A stretch of DNA of 40,958 nucleotides from IMG/VR virus record IMGVR_UViG_3300035703_000181, positions 1 to 40,958 of that record; one strand, 5' to 3'. Positions 18,725-39,592 of the stretch are shown in pieces. Position 1 is the first letter of the stretch, and every line of letters starts with the position of its first letter. The notes beneath the pieces are model-generated. The model made no database searches. It saw only the letters and a program-made list of their open reading frames with translations, and was not told where the DNA came from. The translations under genes and the position numbers were made by a program. The stretch is from a virus.

Positions 18725-21700
18725 TATTTGATCACTCCTAGTTTGTCATTTTCTAATACTCGTGAGTAAAGGTTAGCGAACTCTGTGGAATAAATAGAAA
18801 GATCTCTGATATAACCTTTCCAATCTTCTAACAAGTCGACGTTATCAGGATTCTCTATATTAGCAGAACCACCATCACGCTTTCGCTGTTGCAGATCTTC
18901 GACTAGGACCTTACGGGTTTCTAAGAATCCTACGATTGCCTGAGCACCTGGAGTCTTACCATTATCTGCCATCCACTTTTTATCTTGGACGATAGTTTCT
19001 AATCCCTTAACATAGGCTTCTGCTGTTCCAATAACTTTTTGTGGATTGTCAAATGCCTTAGCCCAAACAGGTAGATATTCTTTAAGTTGGGATATGGAAT
19101 CTTCCCATTCGTCGTCAAGACCAGCATCCCTTGAAGCGGCAGTTCCTAGGCCGGAGATCTTTTGTTCAACCAGTTCTATATTGAGGGCTTCTTTGAACTT
19201 TTGGTAATAGGCCCAACCAATCTGAATCTCACGATCTTCAACAACATCGTCAGCAGCGCGAGACTCTGACCAAACAGTCTTTCCACCGGCTCGTAACTTA
19301 CGATCACTGAAATAGTTGGCAGAGTATTCTTCACCACCGCTATCAACAGTTCCGTAGTTTGCTATGAATCCAGCAAGAAGCGGAAGTCTTTGATAGGACT
19401 TATCAAATTGAGAGATAAGATTCTTATACTTCTTGGCGTTCTTTACTGCACCAATAGTCTTTACCACACCAGTTTCAGTACGGGTAGATGGAGCTGTAGC
19501 GATAAGACCTTCGATTCCCCATTTGTCATAAAGAAAGTCAAATACCTTTTCTGGTCCTACGTTTGGATCCTTCAGCGCTCTTACGTACTCATTAACAATA
19601 AACTGCCACTCTGGTTTCAAAGTGATAGCAACAGGTAGCGTTAAGTTTGCCGCAATACGAATTTTATATAATTGATTAGCCGTTTTAATAGCATCATCAT
19701 AAGTTGGTCGAGGTCCTACTTGGCCGTTCTTGCGCCATTCTATTTCGTTAACCTTCATTGCGGTTCCTACGATACTTGCATAGACTTTATTGTCGTCGCC
19801 CTCAACCCGTTGAATGGATTTCTGGAGCCACGCAGGGAAAGCCTGACTTACCGGCTCTTTGACTGATCGACCAAAAGGAAGAATGGAGCGAAGGGTCATA
19901 TCCGCTGCCTTTTCTCCTGCTATTTCTTTAACAAATTTATCGATATTGTCAATCCACTCTGGTTTGCTATTAGCAATAACAGTAGTAGGAATCATTACCG
20001 GAAGACCAAAAGCAGGAGCCAGCGGATTTTCTCCCTGAAGGAAGATATTAAGGCTGTTCTTTGGTATGTAAACGTTATATCCGCCAGGTATTCCAAAGGT
20101 TTTACGTTGCTCTGGACTAAGTGTGAAGAGAAGATAGGCGGGAGTAGATGGACCCACACCAGTAGGCACTTTATTTCCTTCTTCATCCACGACTGTTGCA
20201 ATACGGTTAGGCGAGTTCCAGATCATTGACGCTCTAGCCAGTTTAGATGGGTCCTTCACGAAAGTCTTTCCGTAGAACCATACTGCGTTATATTGAGCAT
20301 TGAAGAATGGAACAACAAAGCGCATAAAGCTGGAAGCACCAGTGTTATTGAAGACACGATAGAGAGTCTTGTTAAGAGTGGTACGTGCAGTATCGTGGGC
20401 AGTACGTTGAGCCTGAAGAATCCAATCCTCACTAGCAATATCTTTACCAGCACGTTCTGCTAGTCGTACCTCTTGACGAAGAGCGTTCTCATATAGTCTT
20501 TGATAGAAAGGCCAAGATACAAGACGATCTTCCGGCATAGTGCCAATAGTATTAATGACGTTACTTGCCATTTTCTGAAGTTTGCGACGGACTGAACCAC
20601 GTCCCACACGTAGACCATTTTCCACAAACTCTTGTCCAGCAAGAAGATCAAGATTTGGTTGATCACGAAGAAGGATTTCGAATTGCTGCGGCGTAAGTTC
20701 TTCCCTAGCAACAAGTTGTCGAACCAGCGGATCGGGAATAGTCTTTTGGATTCGAGAACGAGCCTCTTGAATGTGCAAGAGAACTTCTTTACGGCTTACA
20801 TCAGCATCGATTTCTCGTAGGTAGAACTGACCTTTCTTACTAAGAAGCCATCCTGCAATCTCTTCATCAGATTGGTTAAGTAAGAGGCGCATAGCAAGTT
20901 GGTCGTTGCGATAGATCTGGTTGACAATACGAGACATCTCTTGCCAGTACTGAGGATCCGTCGGAGCAACCTTTACTGGTTCTCCAGTAAACTGTCCTCT
21001 TCTGCCACCTCCAGGCATTTTGCTTCCCTTGAGAGCATTAAATGTGACATATCCATCTTGTTCTGACATCCAGTTAAGAGTCTTAGCTCCCGATGCTTCT
21101 GAACGAATGAGATCAGCATTAGGCCCTTGATATGCTCCAGAGAACTCAATCCTCTTACCAGATGGAGTAATAACTATAAAAGGCTTTTCGCCGGAGCGAA
21201 CGATCTTCAGTTCAGCACGAGCAGCATTGAGCTTCATAGACTTCTCAATAAGACTCATTACTTCTTCATCAATCATATTGATATTCTGAGTGAATGTTCT
21301 CAAGCCAGTCATATATTCTTCGCCAAGAAGTTCAGCAATGTTTTCGTAATTTACATCACGAGACTTCTCGTAAGTAGTAAAGATACGCACATCAGGTGAT
21401 GGCTCTTTGCCTCGGATATTGATTTCTTTTACAGGACCTTTAATATCCCCAAGCATCTGAGCTGGAAAACCTTTACGGGTTTCAAAATCGCCTACTGCTT
21501 TTCTAGGAAGAACACTTCCCTCTAGTTTGTAGTAAACTCCTCCGCCGAAAGCATCAGCGTAAACCAAAGTAACATCTTTAGGAAGGGTAGGAAGAACCTC
21601 TTTTTTAACATAAGCCTTGTATGCCTTGTTAAGGATATCAAGATGTTCTTTGTGATCTTTTCCGAAAAGAAGCCCTTCTTGCTCTTTCATTTTGTACTGA

Positions 21701-24006
21701 AGTTCTAAGAATCTCATAGTGTCTTTTTCTTTCAGTAGGGTTTCTGAAAGAATTGCGCTCTCAACAGTTTCCTTCTCAAGTTTTCTACCAAATACACCGG
21801 TAGCACCAGCATAGTATTGCTTCTCAAGAATCTGATCAAGCATAGAAGCACGTGCGTCCACCATAGCATTTCTTTGGTAGATAAGTTTATTTAATCCACT
21901 ATTAATCTGACGAGGATTACTTATACTAATAGTGCTTGTGGCGTATAACGAAGCTCTTTTGGCTCTCGTTGCAGTATTCTTAGCAAAGTTTGATATAACA
22001 TCATCTGCTTTTACCATACTGTTGAGTATGGTCATAATACGAGTTTGACCTTCAATCGTGTTACGAATTGGATAGCCAAGACGAGTAAGAACGGAAACTT
22101 TGAAGAAGGAGTTAAGCATATCAAAACTCTCTTCAGCGCCAGTCTTAAGTGAAATAACAGTCTTGTTAGAACCAAGGAAATTATCAAAATCCTTAAAGTC
22201 CAACATAGGAACAATGTTAGGCATTTCTGATTTCCAGAAAGCAGAGACTACAATATCTCCATTGTCGTCAATAAAACTTCCACGGCTTTCAAAATCATCA
22301 AGGATCCTTGCTTTCATTTGATCCCAAGCCTTGTACATTTCTTTTGCTTCAGCAGCATCGTACCCGTGACGAGCAGCAATAACATCTACCGCTTGTTCTT
22401 CAATCGCTTTAAGTGCGTTTCTACGTTCCTTGGCACTGGTAGCTGAGATGTAGTCATCAATCATCTTAGTCTTTGTCTCAAGATTGATTGCAGCTTCATC
22501 GGCGCTTGAAGCCAATTTGAAGTCTGGAATAGAGTTAATAATTGCTTTTAATTCTGTGCCAGAGTCTGCTAGTCCTCCACCATCAACACGAACGATTCCC
22601 GAAGGAAGTTTGTTCCAAGCCATAGTGATACTGCTGACCTTTTGACCAAGCCAATTATCCTGGAAAGATTTAGGAAAGAACGTTACATTATGTTCTGCTG
22701 CGGCACCAAGGCCACGTAAACGCTCGATCTGCACACCTATATTGGTACCAAGAATTTCTCGGTTGATACCGGCAGTAAGATTCTGGATAAGGCGATAATC
22801 GCCTACTCGCTCAGTAAGAGCAACACGTAAATTTTCATCACGCTTCATTAAATCATCAAGAACAGATTGCATCTTGACTTTTTCTGCTTCTTTAGCAAGG
22901 ATCTTTTCTGGTACTGAACCTGCTCCCCAGTCTACAGTAGCAAGATCCTTCTGCATATCTGTCAAAATGTTTTGTTGACGAGTAATCTCTTCGGCGGTTG
23001 CTGCTTGATTGACTCGTAGTTTATTCATAGAGGTAGCATCACCAGCAGAAGCCGCGATAATATCTGCTACATCGTCATAGGTATTTGCATTACCGGTAAG
23101 CCGAGCAAGTAGACGAGGATTGGTAGAGTTCTTCACTAAAGGATCAGTAAGTGCCTCAACAGTATTTTTACCAACTAGACGCTCTGCTGCCATACCGATA
23201 GGGGTCTTACGACCCATTGCACCCTCGGTCTTTACATATATACCGTGAGTATCAAGGTCTGCTCGCATCGTAATAACGTCGTCGTAGCTGTTGATTGGGC
23301 GAGTAATCGTCATACGACGCCCTGCTGCTATTGCTTTACCACCAATAACAAGCGGATCTGTGTACCAAGCAACGGTTCCGTCAAGGAATCCAGAAGTTAT
23401 CTTTCCAAATACTTCATCCTCAAATGCCTTTTTACGAGCGATGGGATCTGCAATATTAAAGTTAGGATCTAAAAAGGTAGGAAGTTTAAGGCCTTCCTTT
23501 TTAGCATAATCCGTAATGCCAAATTGATCTAAACCTTCTGAGTAGTAATTACTCATTGCTTGACCTGGGCTTACCTCTTTAGCAAGATTCCAGTTCTTTA
23601 GTAGGTTTAAGCCTTGATTGCTGTAGAAGTCAGCGGCAGTAAGATAGTAGGCCGATAGGGGTTCTGTTACTACAGGACGTAGAGTGGTATATACCTGGTC
23701 TACTAAACCAAAGAGGCTATCTGCTGCCTGAGCAGCTCCGATCTCCTCTGTTGGCTTGAGAAAAGAATCTACAGATTGACGAGCTAACTCTTGTGACTTC
23801 TTGAGGGTTGCTGCGTTCTTTGCCGCAGTTGCCTCATTCATATTAGAGGTTAGCGCTTCGGTATTGACCTGTGGATTAGTCTTCTGGAATCCTACCTGGA
23901 TAGCAGCATTAGTGAGATTCTTTCCTGCCATAGATGGTACAGAAACAATAGCGCCAAGACTGTCACCAATAAAACTTTTTAATCCATCCCAGTACTTGAG
24001 AGCCAT
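18724..24006 (-). CDS. Giant internal virion protein (1,760 aa)
   Basis: By far the largest gene, about 13% of the genome. The protein is mostly helical. MALKYWDGLKSFIGDSLGAI and alanine-rich segments fill the start, a long coiled-coil-like stretch spans about residues 330-420, and a late block (about 1270-1330) reads SFMRFVVPFFNAQYNAVWFY then RASMIWNSPNR. That FVVPFF.AQYNA..FYGK pattern is shared with very large virion proteins of other phages that are thought to be injected with DNA. No polymerase, Walker or lytic-enzyme motif was recognised. Between portal and capsid genes, it fits the T7 gp16 or N4-type ejection role. Confidence 0.68.
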   Translation of the reverse strand: MALKYWDGLKSFIGDSLGAIVSVPSMAGKNLTNAAIQVGFQKTNPQVNTEALTSNMNEATAAKNAATLKKSQELARQSVDSFLKPTEEIGAAQAADSLFGLVDQVYTTLRPVVTEPLSAYYLTAADFYSNQGLNLLKNWNLAKEVSPGQAMSNYYSEGLDQFGITDYAKKEGLKLPTFLDPNFNIADPIARKKAFEDEVFGKITSGFLDGTVAWYTDPLVIGGKAIAAGRRMTITRPINSYDDVITMRADLDTHGIYVKTEGAMGRKTPIGMAAERLVGKNTVEALTDPLVKNSTNPRLLARLTGNANTYDDVADIIAASAGDATSMNKLRVNQAATAEEITRQQNILTDMQKDLATVDWGAGSVPEKILAKEAEKVKMQSVLDDLMKRDENLRVALTERVGDYRLIQNLTAGINREILGTNIGVQIERLRGLGAAAEHNVTFFPKSFQDNWLGQKVSSITMAWNKLPSGIVRVDGGGLADSGTELKAIINSIPDFKLASSADEAAINLETKTKMIDDYISATSAKERRNALKAIEEQAVDVIAARHGYDAAEAKEMYKAWDQMKARILDDFESRGSFIDDNGDIVVSAFWKSEMPNIVPMLDFKDFDNFLGSNKTVISLKTGAEESFDMLNSFFKVSVLTRLGYPIRNTIEGQTRIMTILNSMVKADDVISNFAKNTATRAKRASLYATSTISISNPRQINSGLNKLIYQRNAMVDARASMLDQILEKQYYAGATGVFGRKLEKETVESAILSETLLKEKDTMRFLELQYKMKEQEGLLFGKDHKEHLDILNKAYKAYVKKEVLPTLPKDVTLVYADAFGGGVYYKLEGSVLPRKAVGDFETRKGFPAQMLGDIKGPVKEINIRGKEPSPDVRIFTTYEKSRDVNYENIAELLGEEYMTGLRTFTQNINMIDEEVMSLIEKSMKLNAARAELKIVRSGEKPFIVITPSGKRIEFSGAYQGPNADLIRSEASGAKTLNWMSEQDGYVTFNALKGSKMPGGGRRGQFTGEPVKVAPTDPQYWQEMSRIVNQIYRNDQLAMRLLLNQSDEEIAGWLLSKKGQFYLREIDADVSRKEVLLHIQEARSRIQKTIPDPLVRQLVAREELTPQQFEILLRDQPNLDLLAGQEFVENGLRVGRGSVRRKLQKMASNVINTIGTMPEDRLVSWPFYQRLYENALRQEVRLAERAGKDIASEDWILQAQRTAHDTARTTLNKTLYRVFNNTGASSFMRFVVPFFNAQYNAVWFYGKTFVKDPSKLARASMIWNSPNRIATVVDEEGNKVPTGVGPSTPAYLLFTLSPEQRKTFGIPGGYNVYIPKNSLNIFLQGENPLAPAFGLPVMIPTTVIANSKPEWIDNIDKFVKEIAGEKAADMTLRSILPFGRSVKEPVSQAFPAWLQKSIQRVEGDDNKVYASIVGTAMKVNEIEWRKNGQVGPRPTYDDAIKTANQLYKIRIAANLTLPVAITLKPEWQFIVNEYVRALKDPNVGPEKVFDFLYDKWGIEGLIATAPSTRTETGVVKTIGAVKNAKKYKNLISQFDKSYQRLPLLAGFIANYGTVDSGGEEYSANYFSDRKLRAGGKTVWSESRAADDVVEDREIQIGWAYYQKFKEALNIELVEQKISGLGTAASRDAGLDDEWEDSISQLKEYLPVWAKAFDNPQKVIGTAEAYVKGLETIVQDKKWMADNGKTPGAQAIVGFLETRKVLVEDLQQRKRDGGSANIENPDNVDLLEDWKGYIRDLSIYSTEFANLYSRVLENDKLGVIK

Positions 24007-29320: not shown

Positions 29321-29387
29321 TTCATCCCCCTACTATATGTAAGGCGGGAAATATAGTGCATTTCCCATTTTTTCCTAAAGTATTTAC

Positions 29388-29710: not shown

Positions 29711-29789
29711 CGATTTTAGATCCAGTTCAATGAGCTGGAATCGGCGGGCCTCGATTTTAGATCCTGGAAAGAGCCATCGATTTTAGATC
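29711..29789. repeat. Three copies of CGATTTTAGATC, operator or origin iterons
   Basis: The 12-mer CGATTTTAGATC occurs at 29711-29722, 29752-29763 and 29778-29789, all in the same orientation, with start spacings of 41 and 26 bases. Copies 1 and 3 share a longer match: CGATTTTAGATC, then C or T, then AGTTCA. The repeats stop about 90 bases before the first plus-strand gene. Iterons for a replication initiator, operator sites or a phage-specific promoter element are all possible. Confidence 0.72.
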
Positions 29790-29817: not shown

Positions 29818-29871
29818 CCACGGCGGAATCTGGAAGAATGAACCCGTGGGGCCGTCCGGCCCTAGATGGAG
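29818..29871 (+). promoter_or_regulatory. Structured leader 1 with AGATGGAG box
   Basis: A stem CCACGG (29818-29823) / CCGTGG (29844-29849) is followed by a GC-rich hairpin GGGCC / GGCCC (29849-29862) and then AGATGGAG at 29864-29871, nine bases before ATG at 29880. The box supplies the GGAG ribosome-binding site. The same order, hairpin then AGATGGAG then start, is seen at 30783, 31234 and 31962. Confidence 0.65.
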
Positions 29872-29879
29872 ATATCAAT

Positions 29880-30527
29880 ATGGAAACTGTAAACGGCCTA
29901 ACGCTTGATGAGGTTCAACTATGCCTTGAATGTAATCGCGAGATGCCTCTCGATTCCGTCGAGGTAGTAGTGCGCTCTGGTTCATTCATCGAGGCAACCT
30001 GTCGAGAGTGTAAAAATAAATTCGATGAACTCTCCCGCGTAAAGTGCGGGAACTGTTCCTGGGATAGTTGGGACTCTCTAACGATTCAGGTAATGAATGA
30101 ATCAGGCGCATCGTGTCCACGATGCCAAGGAGAGGAATTCCTTTTCTTTACGCCAGCAGGCCAGGTAATCAATGGCGAACAGGTAGTGAACTTTCCAGAT
30201 TTAGCGCGTGGAATTCTTTCCTTGTTGGGTGAGGAGGTATCGGTGAACATTGAGCACACAGGAGGAGGAACCGGAACTATTTTTATCTCTGCCGATTCTT
30301 CCGGCCTCAATACTTTCGCCGTAGGGCCTGCCTCCTTATCTACGGGACTCGCGCTCATTGAGGACCTCTGTTGGGGAATCGATGGAGAGGAACCGGTGAG
30401 ATACGCGACGGAAGAATCTAACTATTCACCGGAATCTCTCGCCGTCGCGATAGTTACCGATTTTCTAAAAGTTTCCCCTCGTGGATGGGTAGTCACCTTT
30501 TCTCAGGAGGTACACGATGCTAAATAA
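29880..30527 (+). CDS. Zinc-knuckle hypothetical protein (215 aa)
   Basis: From ATG at 29880 the protein starts METVNGLTLDEVQLCLECNR. Four CxxC pairs occur in the first 90 residues (CLEC, CREC, CGNC, CPRC), which should form two zinc ribbons. The rest has alternating strands and a helix near the end. The frame is open further upstream, but ATG at 29880 is chosen because it follows the AGATGGAG leader box. It is the first gene of the plus-strand block, so it may be early and act on nucleic acid or a host protein. No named family recognised. Confidence 0.68.
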   Translation: METVNGLTLDEVQLCLECNREMPLDSVEVVVRSGSFIEATCRECKNKFDELSRVKCGNCSWDSWDSLTIQVMNESGASCPRCQGEEFLFFTPAGQVINGEQVVNFPDLARGILSLLGEEVSVNIEHTGGGTGTIFISADSSGLNTFAVGPASLSTGLALIEDLCWGIDGEEPVRYATEESNYSPESLAVAIVTDFLKVSPRGWVVTFSQEVHDAK

Positions 30528-30717
30528 TCGCCTCGAATTCACCTCGGTAAAAATTACAGAGGGAGAACTATCTGGCGCGTATCGCGTTAGCGCGTGGCGT
30601 GGGATGGAATATCTAGGGAATGAAACTTTTCTCTACTACACCAAGCGCGAGGCGTTACGTGTAGCGCGAGAGAAAGTTCTCTCCTCCGGTGGCTTGGGAA
30701 TTTATTCTAGGTCCTAG
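30517..30717 (+). CDS. Small basic hypothetical protein (66 aa)
   Basis: MLNNRLEFTSVKITEGELSG, then RVSAWRGMEYLGNETFLYYT and KREALRVAREKVLSSG. It looks like a small alpha/beta fold: several strands followed by a helix. AGGAGG lies six bases before ATG at 30517, which overlaps the upstream gene by 11 bp. Similar small proteins are common in early regions of actinobacteriophages, with unknown roles. Confidence 0.65.
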   Translation: MLNNRLEFTSVKITEGELSGAYRVSAWRGMEYLGNETFLYYTKREALRVAREKVLSSGGLGIYSRS

Positions 30718-30722
30718 TGTTG

Positions 30723-30790
30723 CCTATCCTTCTGGAAGATCTCCGATTCTCCAGAGGGGTAGGGGGTAACTAGGCCCCGATTAGATGGAG
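30723..30790 (+). promoter_or_regulatory. Structured leader 2 with AGATGGAG box
   Basis: A 14-bp stem pairs 30723-30736 with 30750-30763 (outer CCTATCC with GGGTAGG, inner TCTGGA with TCCAGA, two G-T wobbles). An overlapping alternative GGGG...CCCC hairpin forms at 30763-30778. AGATGGAG follows at 30783-30790, ten bases before ATG at 30800. The outer stem arms are shared with leader 3 while the inner stem differs but stays paired, which looks like conserved structure. Confidence 0.75.
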
Positions 30791-30799
30791 GTAATGAAT

Positions 30800-31141
30800 A
30801 TGTGCCAGGAATATTCTGGATGGAAGAACCGCGAAACGTGGGCGATGAATCTATGGCTAGAGAATGACCAGGGACTATATGAATCGGCCCGCGAATATGC
30901 GCGGGAAGAGGTAGAGGGCCACGATGAGGGCAAGGAGATAAATAACTACTACCTAAGTGAGCGCCTCAAGGGGTGGGTGGAGAATGACCTCCTGACTTAT
31001 GAAAATATCAAGGTAAACGAGGAACTCTGGAGAATGTTCTCCGATATCGGTTCCCTCTATCGCGTGGAATGGCGCGAAATCGCCTCCCATCTGCTAGACC
31101 AGGCACTAGAGGAGGCTCTGACGGACAAGGAGGCCGTCTAG
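30800..31141 (+). CDS. Conserved phage protein with SGWKNRETW motif (DUF7249-like)
   Basis: 113 residues from ATG at 30800: MCQEYSGWKNRETWAMNLWL. The xGWxNRETWxxNLWL block is widespread in phage and plasmid proteins (DUF7249-like, from memory) with no assigned role. The rest is helical and acidic (YAREEVEGHDEGKEINNYYL). Two in-frame ATG codons lie upstream (30785, 30794), but 30800 has the best spacing to GGAGG and matches the family's usual N-terminus. It is preceded by leader 2. Confidence 0.75.
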   Translation: MCQEYSGWKNRETWAMNLWLENDQGLYESAREYAREEVEGHDEGKEINNYYLSERLKGWVENDLLTYENIKVNEELWRMFSDIGSLYRVEWREIASHLLDQALEEALTDKEAV

Positions 31142-31169
31142 ATCATAAATTCTTCGGTTCTGGAATCTG

Positions 31170-31241
31170 CCTATCCCTGCCGGTAGTATCTACCGGCAAG
31201 GGTAGGGAGGCGCTAGCCCCCACCGATCAAAGGAGATGGAG
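31170..31241 (+). promoter_or_regulatory. Structured leader 3 with AGATGGAG box
   Basis: A 9-bp perfect inner stem TGCCGGTAG / CTACCGGCA (31178-31186 and 31190-31198, loop TAT) is extended by outer arms CCTA-CCC (31170-31177) and GGGTAGG (31200-31206). The outer arms match those of leader 2. A CTAG-containing GC-rich segment (31208-31220) follows, then AGATGGAG at 31234-31241, two bases before ATG at 31244, with an additional AAGGAG just upstream. Confidence 0.75.
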
Positions 31242-31243
31242 CT

Positions 31244-31456
31244 ATGAATCAGGAACAATTCGCGGCGATGGTTGCCCGCATTGAAAAAATATACGAGGAG
31301 GCCAGTAAAGAGGCGGCGAGGTTGAACGCGCCCTATCTGGAAGAGGAGGACTACGATGAAGAATTCGAGGACACTCTGGACCGGAAATATTTCGACGGCG
31401 CAAGCGATTACGTGGCGATAATACTGGGGATACTACGCGGGAAGGATCAAATCTAA
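31244..31456 (+). CDS. Small acidic helical protein (70 aa)
   Basis: MNQEQFAAMVARIEKIYEEA is a charged helix, followed by EEEDYDEEFEDTLDRKYFDG and a hydrophobic C-terminal helix (YVAIILGILRG). It is highly acidic overall. It starts after leader 3 with a good ribosome-binding site. Small acidic early phage proteins often inhibit host enzymes, but nothing here identifies a target. Family not recognised. Confidence 0.65.
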   Translation: MNQEQFAAMVARIEKIYEEASKEAARLNAPYLEEEDYDEEFEDTLDRKYFDGASDYVAIILGILRGKDQI

Positions 31457-31489
31457 TGAGCAACATTGGGCGAGAATTACTAGGAGGTA

Positions 31490-31723
31490 ATGATGATAAG
31501 TGAGAACTATTTCGATCACTGTGACCCTTGCGGTGAATTGAGCGCGTGTACCTGCTTAGGTTCCCTGGTAGATACCTGGGAGATTAGCGCCTCTGGCCTG
31601 GATGGATGGATGGCCTATCGATATCAATATCGAAAAGGTCCCGCCAATTACTTTGGCTACGCATCGAGCTATCGGGAGGCGATGGATGCCATCGCGGAAT
31701 CGGTTACGGGAGGTGATTTATGA
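31490..31723 (+). CDS. Small cysteine-containing protein (77 aa)
   Basis: MMISENYFDHCDPCGELSAC then TCLGSLVDTWEISASGLDGW. CDPC and the following CTC provide four closely spaced cysteines, suggesting a small metal site. The rest is strand-rich with YRYQYRKGPANYFGYASSYR. AGGAGG precedes ATG at 31490, and a second ATG at 31493 is equally possible. It overlaps the membrane peptide gene by 4 bp. Confidence 0.62.
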   Translation: MMISENYFDHCDPCGELSACTCLGSLVDTWEISASGLDGWMAYRYQYRKGPANYFGYASSYREAMDAIAESVTGGDL

Positions 31724-31869
31724 TCATCGATTATGAATGGGCCGGCCAGGTTCTCGTGAGCTTGATATTCGCCGGAATCACAGGATCGATCCTGGCGGGA
31801 GCCTGGAAACTGGGAGAACGCCTGGTGAGATTCCACCGGCGAGGGATGAGCAGGGTTAGGAGAGGGTGA
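31720..31869 (+). CDS. Small membrane protein (49 aa)
   Basis: MIIDYEWAGQVLVSLIFAGI continuing through TGSILAGAWKLGERLVRF. One membrane helix spans about residues 9-29, followed by a strongly basic C-terminus (HRRGMSRVRRG). The positive-inside rule puts the C-terminus in the cytoplasm. The start overlaps the previous stop (ATGA) and GGAGG lies six bases upstream. It may be an early membrane-acting protein, such as a superinfection-exclusion factor. Confidence 0.62.
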   Translation: MIIDYEWAGQVLVSLIFAGITGSILAGAWKLGERLVRFHRRGMSRVRRG

Positions 31870-31878
31870 GGTTATTCG

Positions 31879-31969
31879 CCAGTGCCGGTGCTAGAAAAGT
31901 ACCGGCTCTGGAGTGTAACCTTATGGTTACCGGCTACCCGATAGGCGGGAGCTGAATTACTAGATGGAG
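31879..31969 (+). promoter_or_regulatory. Structured leader 4 with AGATGGAG box
   Basis: Three consecutive hairpins: CCAG-GCCGGT / ACCGGC-CTGG (31879-31911, one internal mismatch); GTAACC-TTAT-GGTTAC (31915-31930, perfect); and GCT-CCCG / CGGG-AGC (31933-31952). AGATGGAG follows at 31962-31969, six bases before the sliding-clamp ATG at 31976. The total non-coding length is 106 bases. Confidence 0.75.
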
Positions 31970-31975
31970 AAAAGA

Positions 31976-32584
31976 ATGGAAACATCAACGATGGTTAGGG
32001 CGCGGGTAGAAGTAAACGCCAGCGCCGCTCTCGAATTATTCGAGGGAACGATTACCCACGCGGGAACGGATAAATATCTTCCCGTATTGAACGCGGTACA
32101 CCTGACGATGGGCGGTAATGAGCTTACGCTACGGGCTACCGATAGATATCGCCTCATTGAAGGAAAGATAGAAGCATCAGAGAATGTCGAGGGTGAGGCG
32201 CTCATTCCGCTATCTGAGGCCAAGCGAATTATCGCGCTGATCAAATCGAATAAGAATGAGAAGTGCCTGGGGATCGAGATCTTTGGGGCCGGAGTAAGCG
32301 TAAGCCTTGCCGGTAATCTTCTGACGATAGACACTATCGCCGGTAACTTCCCTCCTACGGATCATATTTTCGAGCAGTTCATCAATACCTCCCCCGCTGA
32401 TATTGAGCCGGTGAATGAAATTATGGTGAACCCAAAGTTCTTGGGCGATTACGCGAAACTGGTGGAGAAGAATCAGGGCATCACCTTCACCTTCATCAGT
32501 AAAAAGAAGCCGGTATTGATCGGTATCGCCAGTGATGCGGTGAAGTGGCGAGCAGCTCTAATGCCTATGAAAGTGGTGGAGTAA
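31976..32584 (+). CDS. dnaN: Beta sliding clamp-like protein lacking one domain
   Basis: 202 residues from ATG at 31976. YLPVLNAVHLTMGGNELTLR followed by ATDRYRLIEG, then TIAGNFPPTDHIFEQFI, matches bacterial DnaN domain II. IMVNPKFLGDYAKLVE and RAALMPMKVVE match domain III, including the clamp's usual C-terminal block. Cellular DnaN is about 370 residues with three domains, so domain I is missing. Two-domain protomers would need to trimerise to close a six-domain ring. It presumably tethers a host polymerase, since none is encoded here. ATG at 31964 is possible, but 31976 has the better spacing. Confidence 0.8.
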   Translation: METSTMVRARVEVNASAALELFEGTITHAGTDKYLPVLNAVHLTMGGNELTLRATDRYRLIEGKIEASENVEGEALIPLSEAKRIIALIKSNKNEKCLGIEIFGAGVSVSLAGNLLTIDTIAGNFPPTDHIFEQFINTSPADIEPVNEIMVNPKFLGDYAKLVEKNQGITFTFISKKKPVLIGIASDAVKWRAALMPMKVVE

Positions 32585-33365: not shown

Positions 33366-33445
33366 TGGAGATCTATATCCTGACTGCTGCCGTAGTAGGA
33401 GTGAGTTGGATAATCCTAGAGATAGAAGATAAACTGAAGAAGTGA
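33365..33445 (+). CDS. Tiny membrane peptide (26 aa)
   Basis: Frame MEIYILTAAVVGVSWIILEI ending EDKLKK: one membrane helix with a charged end. TAATG overlap at the start and a GTGA overlap with the transglycosylase-like gene at the end suggest it is translated, and coupled to that gene. It may help membrane targeting or be a leader peptide. Confidence 0.5.
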   Translation: MEIYILTAAVVGVSWIILEIEDKLKK

Positions 33446-33885
33446 ATAATAAACGACGGCTAGCGCTGGCGGTCCCCCTAACCCTGGCGCTAGCTTTTTT
33501 ATTGATCCCTCACGGGGAGGAATGGACGGCGCATAAGTTTGATCCGCCTAAGCCGATCCCATCCCCTGCTAAGAAGGAAAGAAAATATGCAACACCCAAG
33601 GAGAGGAAAGAGAATGAACGACTGGCCAAGACCTACGCTAACGCTGCTTATGGGTGGCAAGGATCAGAATGGAAGTGCCTCAAGTCCTTATGGACCGCTG
33701 AAAGTAGGTTTAGTCACCTATCGGACAACCCAAAATCGTCAGCTTTCGGAATTGCTCAACGACTTAGAGAGAAAAGTAAAGACCCTCGAATCCAGATTCT
33801 CCACGGACTTCGGTATATCGCTCACCGATATCGAACCCCTTGCCGTGCCTGGGAAGCGTGGGGACGGCACGGCGGATGGTACTAA
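33442..33885 (+). CDS. Membrane-anchored lytic transglycosylase-like protein
   Basis: 147 residues from GTG at 33442. A basic N-terminus and hydrophobic segment (about residues 7-22, LALAVPLTLALAFLLI) form a signal or anchor sequence. A lysine-rich linker follows, then an SLT-like domain: WTAESRF (Glu87 as the likely catalytic acid), DNPKSSAFGIAQ (95-106) and IQILHGLRYIAHRYRTPCRA ending WGRHGGWY. This family cuts peptidoglycan glycan strands in actinobacterial phages. Its place in the plus-strand block rather than beside the late endolysin is unusual; it could act in wall remodelling or early entry-related functions. Confidence 0.78.
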   Translation: MNNKRRLALAVPLTLALAFLLIPHGEEWTAHKFDPPKPIPSPAKKERKYATPKERKENERLAKTYANAAYGWQGSEWKCLKSLWTAESRFSHLSDNPKSSAFGIAQRLREKSKDPRIQILHGLRYIAHRYRTPCRAWEAWGRHGGWY

Positions 33886-38489: not shown

Positions 38490-39321
38490 GTCGCAACTCC
38501 TGTATCGCTGAGTGTCTATAGGCCCTGCCTTGGGCATCCTGGTCACCTATCTGACAGGTAGCATAGTCAACAAATAGCGTAACGTAATCTGATCCATCTG
38601 CACTGTGGGGACCAAAGCGATTCTTCACTGGTGCTACAGTCAACGAGGAGTCCAGCGGATCGTATCCCAAAGTAACTATCAGACTGGGGAGCTGAGAAAT
38701 CTTTCCGTGGATTGCCCGTCGAGGAGGAGGCAATGAGTTCTTGCCATACTCAGATTGTTCTGAAGTGTGATGAAGTACCAATACGCAGGCTTCCGTTAGA
38801 CGAGCAAGGTGATGGAACTCAGTCATAATAGCCCGCAGTCCACTCCACTCGTTCTCTGTTTCAGCAACGACATTCGATAGGTTGTCAACGACAATGAGTT
38901 GGGGAGGCAGTCCATTGAGTTCAATATATGCCTTAACCTCCAACTCAATGTCATCTATCGAAGGGGAGGGATCAAAGACCCATTTGATATGAGAGATCCT
39001 GTCTATCTGGTGATTATAGAAACCACTCTGAAGAGCAAGATTATTCTCTACCATCAGCTGTGTGTGTTGTGTGAGGTGCGCTGCTGTTCGCATCGCAACG
39101 GTTGAGATATCGGTATCGGCAGAGAAAAATAAGGTGGGAACATTCGCTCTAATCGCATAGACCAGAGCGAACATAGACTTACCGGCATTAGGTTGCGCTG
39201 CAACCATACACACCTGCCCACGACGGAACTTAATCTGCTTGCCGGATAGCGCCCGCCATACATCAGGCAGTGGCTCAGCTCGCATCTGAGTACCACGCCA
39301 CGCCCTCTGTAGATCAAGCAA
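38482..39321 (-). CDS. RecA/DnaB-like ATPase (AAA_25 type), TTG start
   Basis: 279 residues from TTG at 39321. Walker A AAQPNAGKS (41-49) and Walker B LIVVDN (142-147) lie in a RecA-like core. VLVLHHTSEQSEYG with the paired His resembles the DnaB/KaiC group. It may be the replicative helicase or a recombinase or helicase loader. No separate DnaB-like gene is seen, so helicase is the best guess. GGAGGA lies eight bases before the TTG, which overlaps the WhiB stop; the frame is open to 39447 but would then overlap WhiB by 134 bp. Confidence 0.76.
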   Translation of the reverse strand: MLDLQRAWRGTQMRAEPLPDVWRALSGKQIKFRRGQVCMVAAQPNAGKSMFALVYAIRANVPTLFFSADTDISTVAMRTAAHLTQHTQLMVENNLALQSGFYNHQIDRISHIKWVFDPSPSIDDIELEVKAYIELNGLPPQLIVVDNLSNVVAETENEWSGLRAIMTEFHHLARLTEACVLVLHHTSEQSEYGKNSLPPPRRAIHGKISQLPSLIVTLGYDPLDSSLTVAPVKNRFGPHSADGSDYVTLFVDYATCQIGDQDAQGRAYRHSAIQELRRG

Positions 39322-39592
39322 AGCGGTGATCCTCCAATGACTCGAAAGGTATTTTATGATTCTTCCTATAGATCCGGCGTTCACGTTCTGTTGAACCGCC
39401 CCAGATCCCGTGTGCCTCGTGCCGTACTGCCCACTCAAAACAATCAATCTTGAACGGACAATCAGCGCAAAGGGCTTTCAGTGTACGAATAGCAAGTGGG
39501 TGGTACCCCATATTGCCATAAGCATCTGGATAAAATGCTTCTACTCCAACCTCTCTACAAGGTGGGTCTACAAATTCCCAAGGTCGAAGCAT
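39314..39592 (-). CDS. whiB: WhiB-family transcriptional regulator
   Basis: 92 residues. Cys12 and the C42-x2-C45-x5-C51 set are the four ligands of the [4Fe-4S] cluster, GIWGGSTERERR (62-73) is the signature turn and basic segment, and a short linker completes the domain. WhiB proteins bind the sigma factor region 4 of RNA polymerase in Actinobacteria, and phage copies (for example WhiBTM4) can down-regulate host whiB genes. Here it probably redirects host transcription. It lies next to the ATPase gene in the replication block. Confidence 0.92.
   Translation of the reverse strand: MLRPWEFVDPPCREVGVEAFYPDAYGNMGYHPLAIRTLKALCADCPFKIDCFEWAVRHEAHGIWGGSTERERRIYRKNHKIPFESLEDHRFA

Follow-up and report, generated by a model that had tools for sequence, protein, structure and literature searches.

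The DNA analysed here (the window) is the 40,958 bases of IMG/VR virus record IMGVR_UViG_3300035703_000181, and the subject of this analysis is a family of structured RNA elements that lie in the gaps between its early genes. The window has a divergent layout, with the terminase and structural genes reading leftwards from 29136 and small genes reading rightwards from 29880; all gene positions rest on crude open reading frame (ORF) calls. The host is, by inference, an actinobacterium, as indicated by the terminase relatives and by an ORF at 39314–39592 that we take, by eye, to be WhiB-like. Three elements, all on the plus strand as are the genes around them, are present in the window. Element 1 joins a small gene of 66 amino acids (aa; 30517–30717) to a DUF7249 gene (113 aa, 30800–31141), element 2 precedes a gene for a small acidic protein (70 aa, 31244–31456), and element 3 precedes a DNA polymerase III sliding-clamp-like gene (202 aa, 31976–32584).

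The elements follow one plan. In the 5′-to-3′ direction, it comprises the 5′ strand of helix P1, a joiner (J) of 5–8 nucleotides (nt), the long hairpin P2, the 5′ strand of helix P3, the 3′ strand of P1, a spacer of 0–11 nt, and the 3′ strand of P3. The loop of P3 contains the 3′ strand of P1, and P1 and P3 form a pseudoknot or alternative helices. The 5′ strand of P1 is often CUAGUG or UUAGUGG and usually holds the stop codon of the upstream gene, while the inner part of P2 is freely variable yet paired, and the 5′ strand of P3 follows P2, usually with zero gap. The outer part of P2 forms a conserved core, in which pair 1 is U-A or U·G, pair 2 is A-U in 63 of 78 copies, and pair 3 is U·G in 59 of 78.

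Specifically, element 1 (30713–30778) consists of P1 CCTAGT/ACTAGG, joiner GTTGC, P2 CTATCC...GGGTAG and P3 GGGG/CCCC, with the 3′ strand of P1 in the P3 loop and the upstream TAG stop (30715–30717) within the 5′ strand of P1. It was picked up by our descriptor scan and is part of the covariation alignment A1 described below. Element 2 (31160–31221) starts 18 nt 3′ of the upstream stop and consists of P1 CTGG/CTAG, joiner AATCTGC, P2 CTATCC...GGGTAG enclosing the inner stem TGCCGGTAG/CTACCGGCA, and P3 GGAGG/CCCCC with one mismatch. Covariance model R1, whose training set includes both elements, matches element 1 at 30712–30780 (18.5 bits, E = 0.008) and element 2 at 31158–31225 (19.0 bits, E = 0.005). 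Element 3 (31866–31929) consists of P1 GTGAG/CTTAT, joiner GTTATT, P2 CGCCAG...CTGGAGTG and P3 TAAC/GTTA, and the upstream TGA stop overlaps its P1. It belongs to a divergent class, was missed by model R1, and has the shape of element L030_3402 of a related phage, with CCTTATGGTTAC common to both. For elements 2 and 3, the parse was assigned manually. Elements 1 and 2 are typical members of the family, and element 3 is a divergent member.

A first-pass annotation of the window had grouped four leaders, in front of the genes at 29880, 30800, 31244 and 31976, as one set of start-anchored hairpins sharing the 8-mer AGATGGAG as a start box. Strong hairpins are indeed present 5′ of these starts, and few local folds in the window are as strong as those of leaders 2 and 3. 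The outer arms common to these two leaders, GCCTATCC...GGGTAGG, give two matches against 0.00 expected in shuffles, and their inner stems are unrelated in sequence and fully paired. The grouping stands for leaders 2, 3 and 4, which are elements 1, 2 and 3, respectively, but not for leader 1, and the hairpins are anchored to the stop codon of the preceding gene, not to the start. Two parts had been overlooked, namely the membership of the leader 4 hairpin and the second hairpin, P3, with the 3′ outer arm in its loop. The 8-mer occurs at 29864, 30783, 31234 and 31962 as described, but its sharing is a coincidence around the ribosome-binding site and lies outside the RNA element. Two more copies, at 19486 and 21160, bring the total in the window to six, against 1.95 expected, and the 8-mer contains GGAG, a Shine-Dalgarno (SD) core; the plus-strand copy at 30783–30790 carries the SD sequence of the gene at 30800, and the likely SD sequence of leader 3 is AAAGGAG just 5′ of the 8-mer. 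Relatives seldom have it: of about 2,500 start regions beyond the window, 3 contain it.

IMG/VR contigs by the hundred match the window's terminase protein at about 78–88% identity. They represent a large family of phages of freshwater bacteria, by inference actinobacteria, and served as the comparison set for the element search. The sliding clamp, used as a query against viral contigs, recovered zero relatives, and the terminase, used as a query against GTDB contigs, gave no match, i.e. no bacterial or prophage occurrence was found. The scan covered the early region, on the upstream side of the terminase, initially in 80 relatives and later in 208 loci, which represent 163 distinct regions (L numbers below; coordinates count along this region after reverse complementation). 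Near-duplicate regions were removed, the counts still include some related sequences, and descriptor thresholds were picked by eye, with controls run at identical thresholds.

In the first 80 relatives, 94 strong hairpins lie upstream of the terminase, most of them with one plan. The descriptor at a score of at least 48 gives 62 matches on the gene strand, 5 on the opposite strand and 0 in dinucleotide shuffles; at a score of 50, the same loci hold 54 sense and 5 antisense matches, whereas the other 524 kb of these contigs hold 0 and 1 on the two strands. Across the 163 distinct regions, 151 sense and 18 antisense matches score at least 50, and 70 of the 90 regions of at least 4 kb carry one or more elements. 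An extra small hairpin, GAGCG-AA-CGCTC, trails many elements of one subgroup, and in L016, L019, L011, L026 and L028 it stands just after the second or third element.

The paired strands covary. In alignment A1 (36 members, among them leaders 2 and 3 of the window, with the inner part of P2 trimmed), 90.0% of the P1 and P2 cells are paired against 70.8% in shuffles, two-sided changes number 103 against 29.5, and the covariation score is 0.605 against 0.216, a value reached by 0 of 500 shuffles. Two-sided changes occur at all six P1 pairs, and the signal is lost when the partners are slid. Because the MAFFT alignment lost register in the P3 arms, P3 was tested by pairing each element with its own or with foreign downstream sequence, and circularity was avoided by choosing elements on P1 and P2 only (88 sense, 1 antisense). 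A P3 score of at least 9 is reached by 73% of elements with their own downstream sequence, by 26% with foreign sequence and by 25% with shuffled sequence.

The first 10 pairs of P2 contain 167 G·U and 8 A·C, a count that is somewhat biased since the hairpin finder tolerates G·U, whereas the sense and antisense counts are free of that bias. The large excess of G·U over A·C indicates that it is the RNA of the gene strand that folds. Comparison of sequences establishes the structure, the sense strand, the slot and the recurrence of the element. The first-pass proposal of a conserved RNA structure dispersed before early genes, with inner stems that vary yet pair, is thus strongly supported; the check that it had suggested was run, and relatives hold more copies, with covariation far above shuffles.

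These data bear on three other explanations. Chance hairpins combined with a common ribosome-binding-site word, with no family behind them, would agree with the fact that the 8-mer itself is unconserved, but this account is refuted by the sense/antisense and shuffle controls, the covariation and the slot geometry described below. Strong G+C-rich hairpins in gaps could also be intrinsic transcription terminators or attenuators between cistrons. However, 0 of 91 elements have at least five T in the 9 nt after P3, 4 of 91 have at least six T after P2, the three window elements have no terminator-like site, and repeating such signals within one operon makes little sense, so that we regard this explanation as very improbable.

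A DNA-level recombination or cassette site, in which an attC-like single-strand hairpin moves small genes, was favoured by the imperfect hairpin with conserved outer arms, unpaired centre and variable tip, and by the position of single copies at the 3′ ends of small genes of diverse kinds, where they overlap the stop. The preference for one strand, on which G·U pairs are kept and A·C mismatches avoided as in RNA, argues against it, as do P3, which lies outside any attC plan yet covaries, and the 3′ arms of P1 (CACTAG, CTAA and similar), which misfit GTTRRRY. The attC-like reading is largely refuted, and the earlier suggestion of recombination points for gene gain is disfavoured by the same pairing bias.

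The architecture extends to cultured phages. The terminase of Streptomyces phage Manuel is 42% identical to that of the window, and its early gaps show the same plan. In six Streptomyces phages (Manuel, Immanuel3, Stella, Zeigle, RosePharie and Abafar), which were found by structure after collecting terminase relatives, 26 of 53 gaps score at least 50, against an expectation of 0.1 from shuffles and a count of 7 for the antisense strand, while the unrelated Gordonia phage Jace, used as a control, gives 0 of 15. A blastn search with one element against cultured phages returned chance matches only. The Streptomyces members have the order P1-joiner-P2-P3, the 3′ strand of P1 falling in the loop of P3, with a stop at P1 and a start about 20 nt after the element; the freshwater and Streptomyces elements thus have architecture and slot in common. 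Orthologous gaps show compensatory changes by inspection; for example, the gap 3′ of gp81 holds GGCT/AGCC and TGCCTA/TAGGTG in Manuel, and GTGAGC/GCTCAC and TGCATG/CATGCG in Stella. The gap 3′ of an ardA-like gene holds an element in Manuel, Stella, Immanuel3 and RosePharie, and ardA of Agrobacterium tumefaciens is also flanked by hammerhead ribozymes (PMC3088659). In Stella (L257), the minus strand at 23526–23634, near the right genome end, carries an Rfam bacterial 16S rRNA-like fragment (85 bits, model positions 106–311).

The conserved core of P2 might be a binding site for a protein, i.e. a phage or host translational repressor, an RNA chaperone or a ribonuclease (RNase) that recognizes 5′-UAU/5′-GUR with its U·G, beside the P3 junction. 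Such a site is favoured by the conserved core amid covarying pairs. The Streptomyces elements, however, keep just part of that core (U·G or U·U by inspection), and the genes 3′ of the elements belong to many unrelated families, which would be odd for one operator; we consider a protein site rather improbable. Among the functions listed in the first-pass annotation, an RNase site is still live, and a translational operator is the less probable option, given the usual position of the SD sequence beyond the fold and the great diversity of the downstream genes.

The elements occupy a defined slot between cistrons. The upstream stop lies within or at P1, with most offsets at 0 to +8 nt, and it is UAG at 87 of 110 elements, whereas UAG makes up 23% of the stops called overall. 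About 26 nt separate the element from the next start codon, and the next ribosome-binding site is unpaired. Elements sit mainly in gaps of 60–130 nt; well-supported junctions mostly overlap, and none of the 634 with a gap of −8 to 5 nt has an element. Stop-codon readthrough was set aside on anatomy only, the downstream genes having their own SD sequence and start.

The same slots are used by type-II hammerhead ribozymes. An Rfam match in L004 is a type-II hammerhead, and a core search revealed 30 type-II hammerheads in the 163 regions, with 0 antisense (L004, L005, L014, L021, L022, L038, L045, L047, L051, L052, L054, L055, L057, L070 and others). Nearly all of them begin at the stop codon and end about 23 nt before the start, and 13 regions carry both a hammerhead and a pseudoknot element. 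In four downstream gene families, F67 (DUF7249), F23, F26 and F32, the pseudoknot element precedes the gene in some phages and a hammerhead does so in others, while in most of the remaining phages the upstream gene overlaps. In particular, DUF7249 orthologues have the pseudoknot element 5′ in L020 and L185, a hammerhead in L057, and a gene overlap with no element in L029, L037 and L077. Type-II hammerheads are frequent in the freshwater phage family, mostly under the Rfam gathering score, and one L004 copy has a CUGAAGA core.

Some gaps without a class carry other structured RNAs. A second structured family lies in the same kind of stop-to-start slot. Its G+C-rich P1 surrounds two hairpins, the first of them small; one unpaired A stands just 5′ of the 3′ strand of P1, and P1 is followed by AC-N-A and often by another hairpin. 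It was seen in L145 (region ~1601), L140, L138, L058, L061, L041, L030, L075, L110, L117, L171 and L077, has no Rfam match, and could be another ribozyme-like element.

We propose that the pseudoknot element is intercistronic punctuation of the polycistronic early mRNA, a reading that we judge evenly balanced and whose cleavage part comes from the likeness to hammerheads. The element fills the gap between two cistrons, starting on the upstream stop with the 5′ strand of P1. P2 is followed directly by P3, whose loop can pair back with the 5′ strand of P1, and the transcript would be cut at or beside the zero-nucleotide P2/P3 junction. The upstream mRNA would then end in a protective P2 and the downstream mRNA would begin with a protective P3, the same outcome as for the hammerheads in the same slots, which are cut between stems III and I. 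Two abutting hairpins, a conserved core beside the junction and a stop-anchored outer strand make cistron separation the simplest inference. A cut by the RNA itself and a cut by a host RNase carry about equal weight. More specifically, the element could be a new class of self-cleaving ribozyme, unrelated to the hammerhead, that cuts the P2/P3 junction beside the U·G and that actinobacterial phages swap freely with hammerheads, giving single-gene mRNAs; we offer this form of the proposal tentatively.

Several points weigh against punctuation by cleavage. The hammerhead interchange is known from few examples (four downstream and four upstream families), and the slot match is partly trivial, since an intercistronic RNA always lies between a stop and a start. 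A further 149 gaps of 60–130 nt fit no class. Outside P2 there is no nearly invariant nucleotide, which is unusual for a small ribozyme. The freshwater covariance model does not recognize the Streptomyces elements (best match E = 0.71), and shared ancestry of the two sets is no more than a possibility. Finally, the 3′ strands of P1 and P3 are 0–1 nt apart in 46 of 91 copies.

This last spacing, together with equal energies of the two folds, implies that the helices may alternate, as in a switch rather than a cut. In a bistable switch without cleavage, P1+P2, which make one long imperfect hairpin in which the joiner faces the 5′ strand of P3, would alternate with P2+P3; a ribosome ending the upstream gene would cover P1 and the joiner and favour P3, and the switch would control re-initiation or decouple translation of the next gene. 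Consistent with such a switch, P1+P2 and P2+P3 are of equal energy on average (median difference −0.2 kcal/mol, with either fold the lower in half of the cases), the 3′ spacer has the length of the joiner in 38 of 44 cases (r = 0.90), and there is partial complementarity between the joiner and the P3 5′ strand of the same element (62%, as compared with 44% when swapped). The stop codon inside P1 and the mostly overlapping, i.e. translationally coupled, junctions without an element fit as well. However, the SD sequence usually lies outside both folds, about 10–25 nt after P3, and is hidden in neither state; similar energies are expected of any two helices of about five pairs; and the use of the same slot by hammerheads is left unexplained. 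We therefore consider the switch unlikely, while intercistronic punctuation remains our preferred reading.

Other features of the window lie near the early genes. Leader 1 (29818–29871, plus strand) contains the hairpin CCACGG/CCGTGG plus GGGCCG/CGGCCC; it folds without a P1/P2/P3 parse in the descriptor scan, was rejected as a family member, and is probably the 5′ leader of the early operon. Just 5′ of the first early gene, at 29711–29789, CGATTTTAGATC occurs in three exact copies (29711, 29752 and 29778), two of which are followed by YAGTTCA, and these are possible promoter or operator repeats. The sole terminator-like site of the divergent region is GGGAAATATAGTGCATTTCCC followed by ATTTTTTCC at 29346–29366. 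At 33442–33540, the start of a 147-aa gene, the inverted repeat GGCTAGCGCTGG...CCTGGCGCTAGC followed by TTTTTTATT is terminator-like inside a coding start.

It is uncommon for a new structured RNA family to have many members in uncultured as well as cultured phages, and the present family also occupies slots used by a known ribozyme. Were the element to cut itself, the few natural classes of self-cleaving ribozyme would gain another; cleavage by a host RNase would show gene-by-gene setting of mRNA ends in these phages; and an element that only folds would be a stop-codon-anchored switch. Membership in cultured Streptomyces phages makes the element testable at the bench. The early gene borders of such phages hold a repertoire of structured RNAs that is invisible in annotation.

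The RNA element family is undescribed. Rfam 15, which includes the known self-cleaving ribozyme classes, gives no match at the window elements at E up to 5, nor to elements in 35 loci, in six element-rich loci (E up to 10) or in the Streptomyces phages, although its gathering score also missed most true hammerheads here. No description of such an element was found in the open-access literature, a coverage that most subscription journals lie outside. In the topology of P1 and P3, with a hairpin inserted in loop 1, the element resembles H-type pseudoknots such as small riboswitches and recoding pseudoknots. Unlike these, it is present in many copies per genome before unrelated genes, has no conserved loop resembling a ligand pocket, and follows a stop, with the next gene starting independently. 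Integron attC sites, whose R-box core consensus is GTTRRRY, are likewise imperfect hairpins at the 3′ ends of small genes, with conserved outer parts and a tip that varies, but the element differs from them in its RNA-type G·U bias, its added P3 helix and the lack of an attC box.

The first-pass annotation had likened the leaders to the start-associated sequences (SAS) and extended start-associated sequences (ESAS) of cluster K mycobacteriophages. Both kinds of element are multi-copy, lie at gene boundaries in the early region of actinobacteriophages and contain imperfect inverted repeats. The likeness goes no further: the SAS consensus GGGATAGGAGCCC with at most three mismatches gives 7 matches against 9.8 expected, none of them at the elements, and the element has the stop codon as its anchor and stems that vary and covary, whereas ESAS abuts start codons and has 17-nt repeats (PMC12699233).

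RNase processing sites offer another parallel. The RNase III sites of phage T7 are intercistronic processing sites. In the cip-cel operon, intergenic stem-loops are cleavage signals that protect both ends (PMC10311766). As in these systems, several structured sites are present per polycistronic mRNA and could protect both new ends, although the present element is a pseudoknot or a set of alternative helices anchored on the stop codon.

The type-II hammerheads share with the element the slot, the phage family and often the genome, and orthologous genes carry either one. In both, an outer strand is followed by two abutting hairpins, and the hammerhead cut falls between these. The hammerhead core finder detects none at the three window elements while it detects true hammerheads elsewhere in the same regions. 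Specifically, the element is without the CUGANGA/GAAA core, which in the hammerhead encloses a three-way junction with an NUH cleavage site; its outer strand closes no three-way junction but pairs with the second hairpin's loop; and its conserved part is the U·G-containing piece of P2, beside which the cut is presumed. Type-II hammerheads around phage genes were proposed by Perreault et al. (2011) to cut transcripts into operon- or gene-length mRNAs (PMC3088659).

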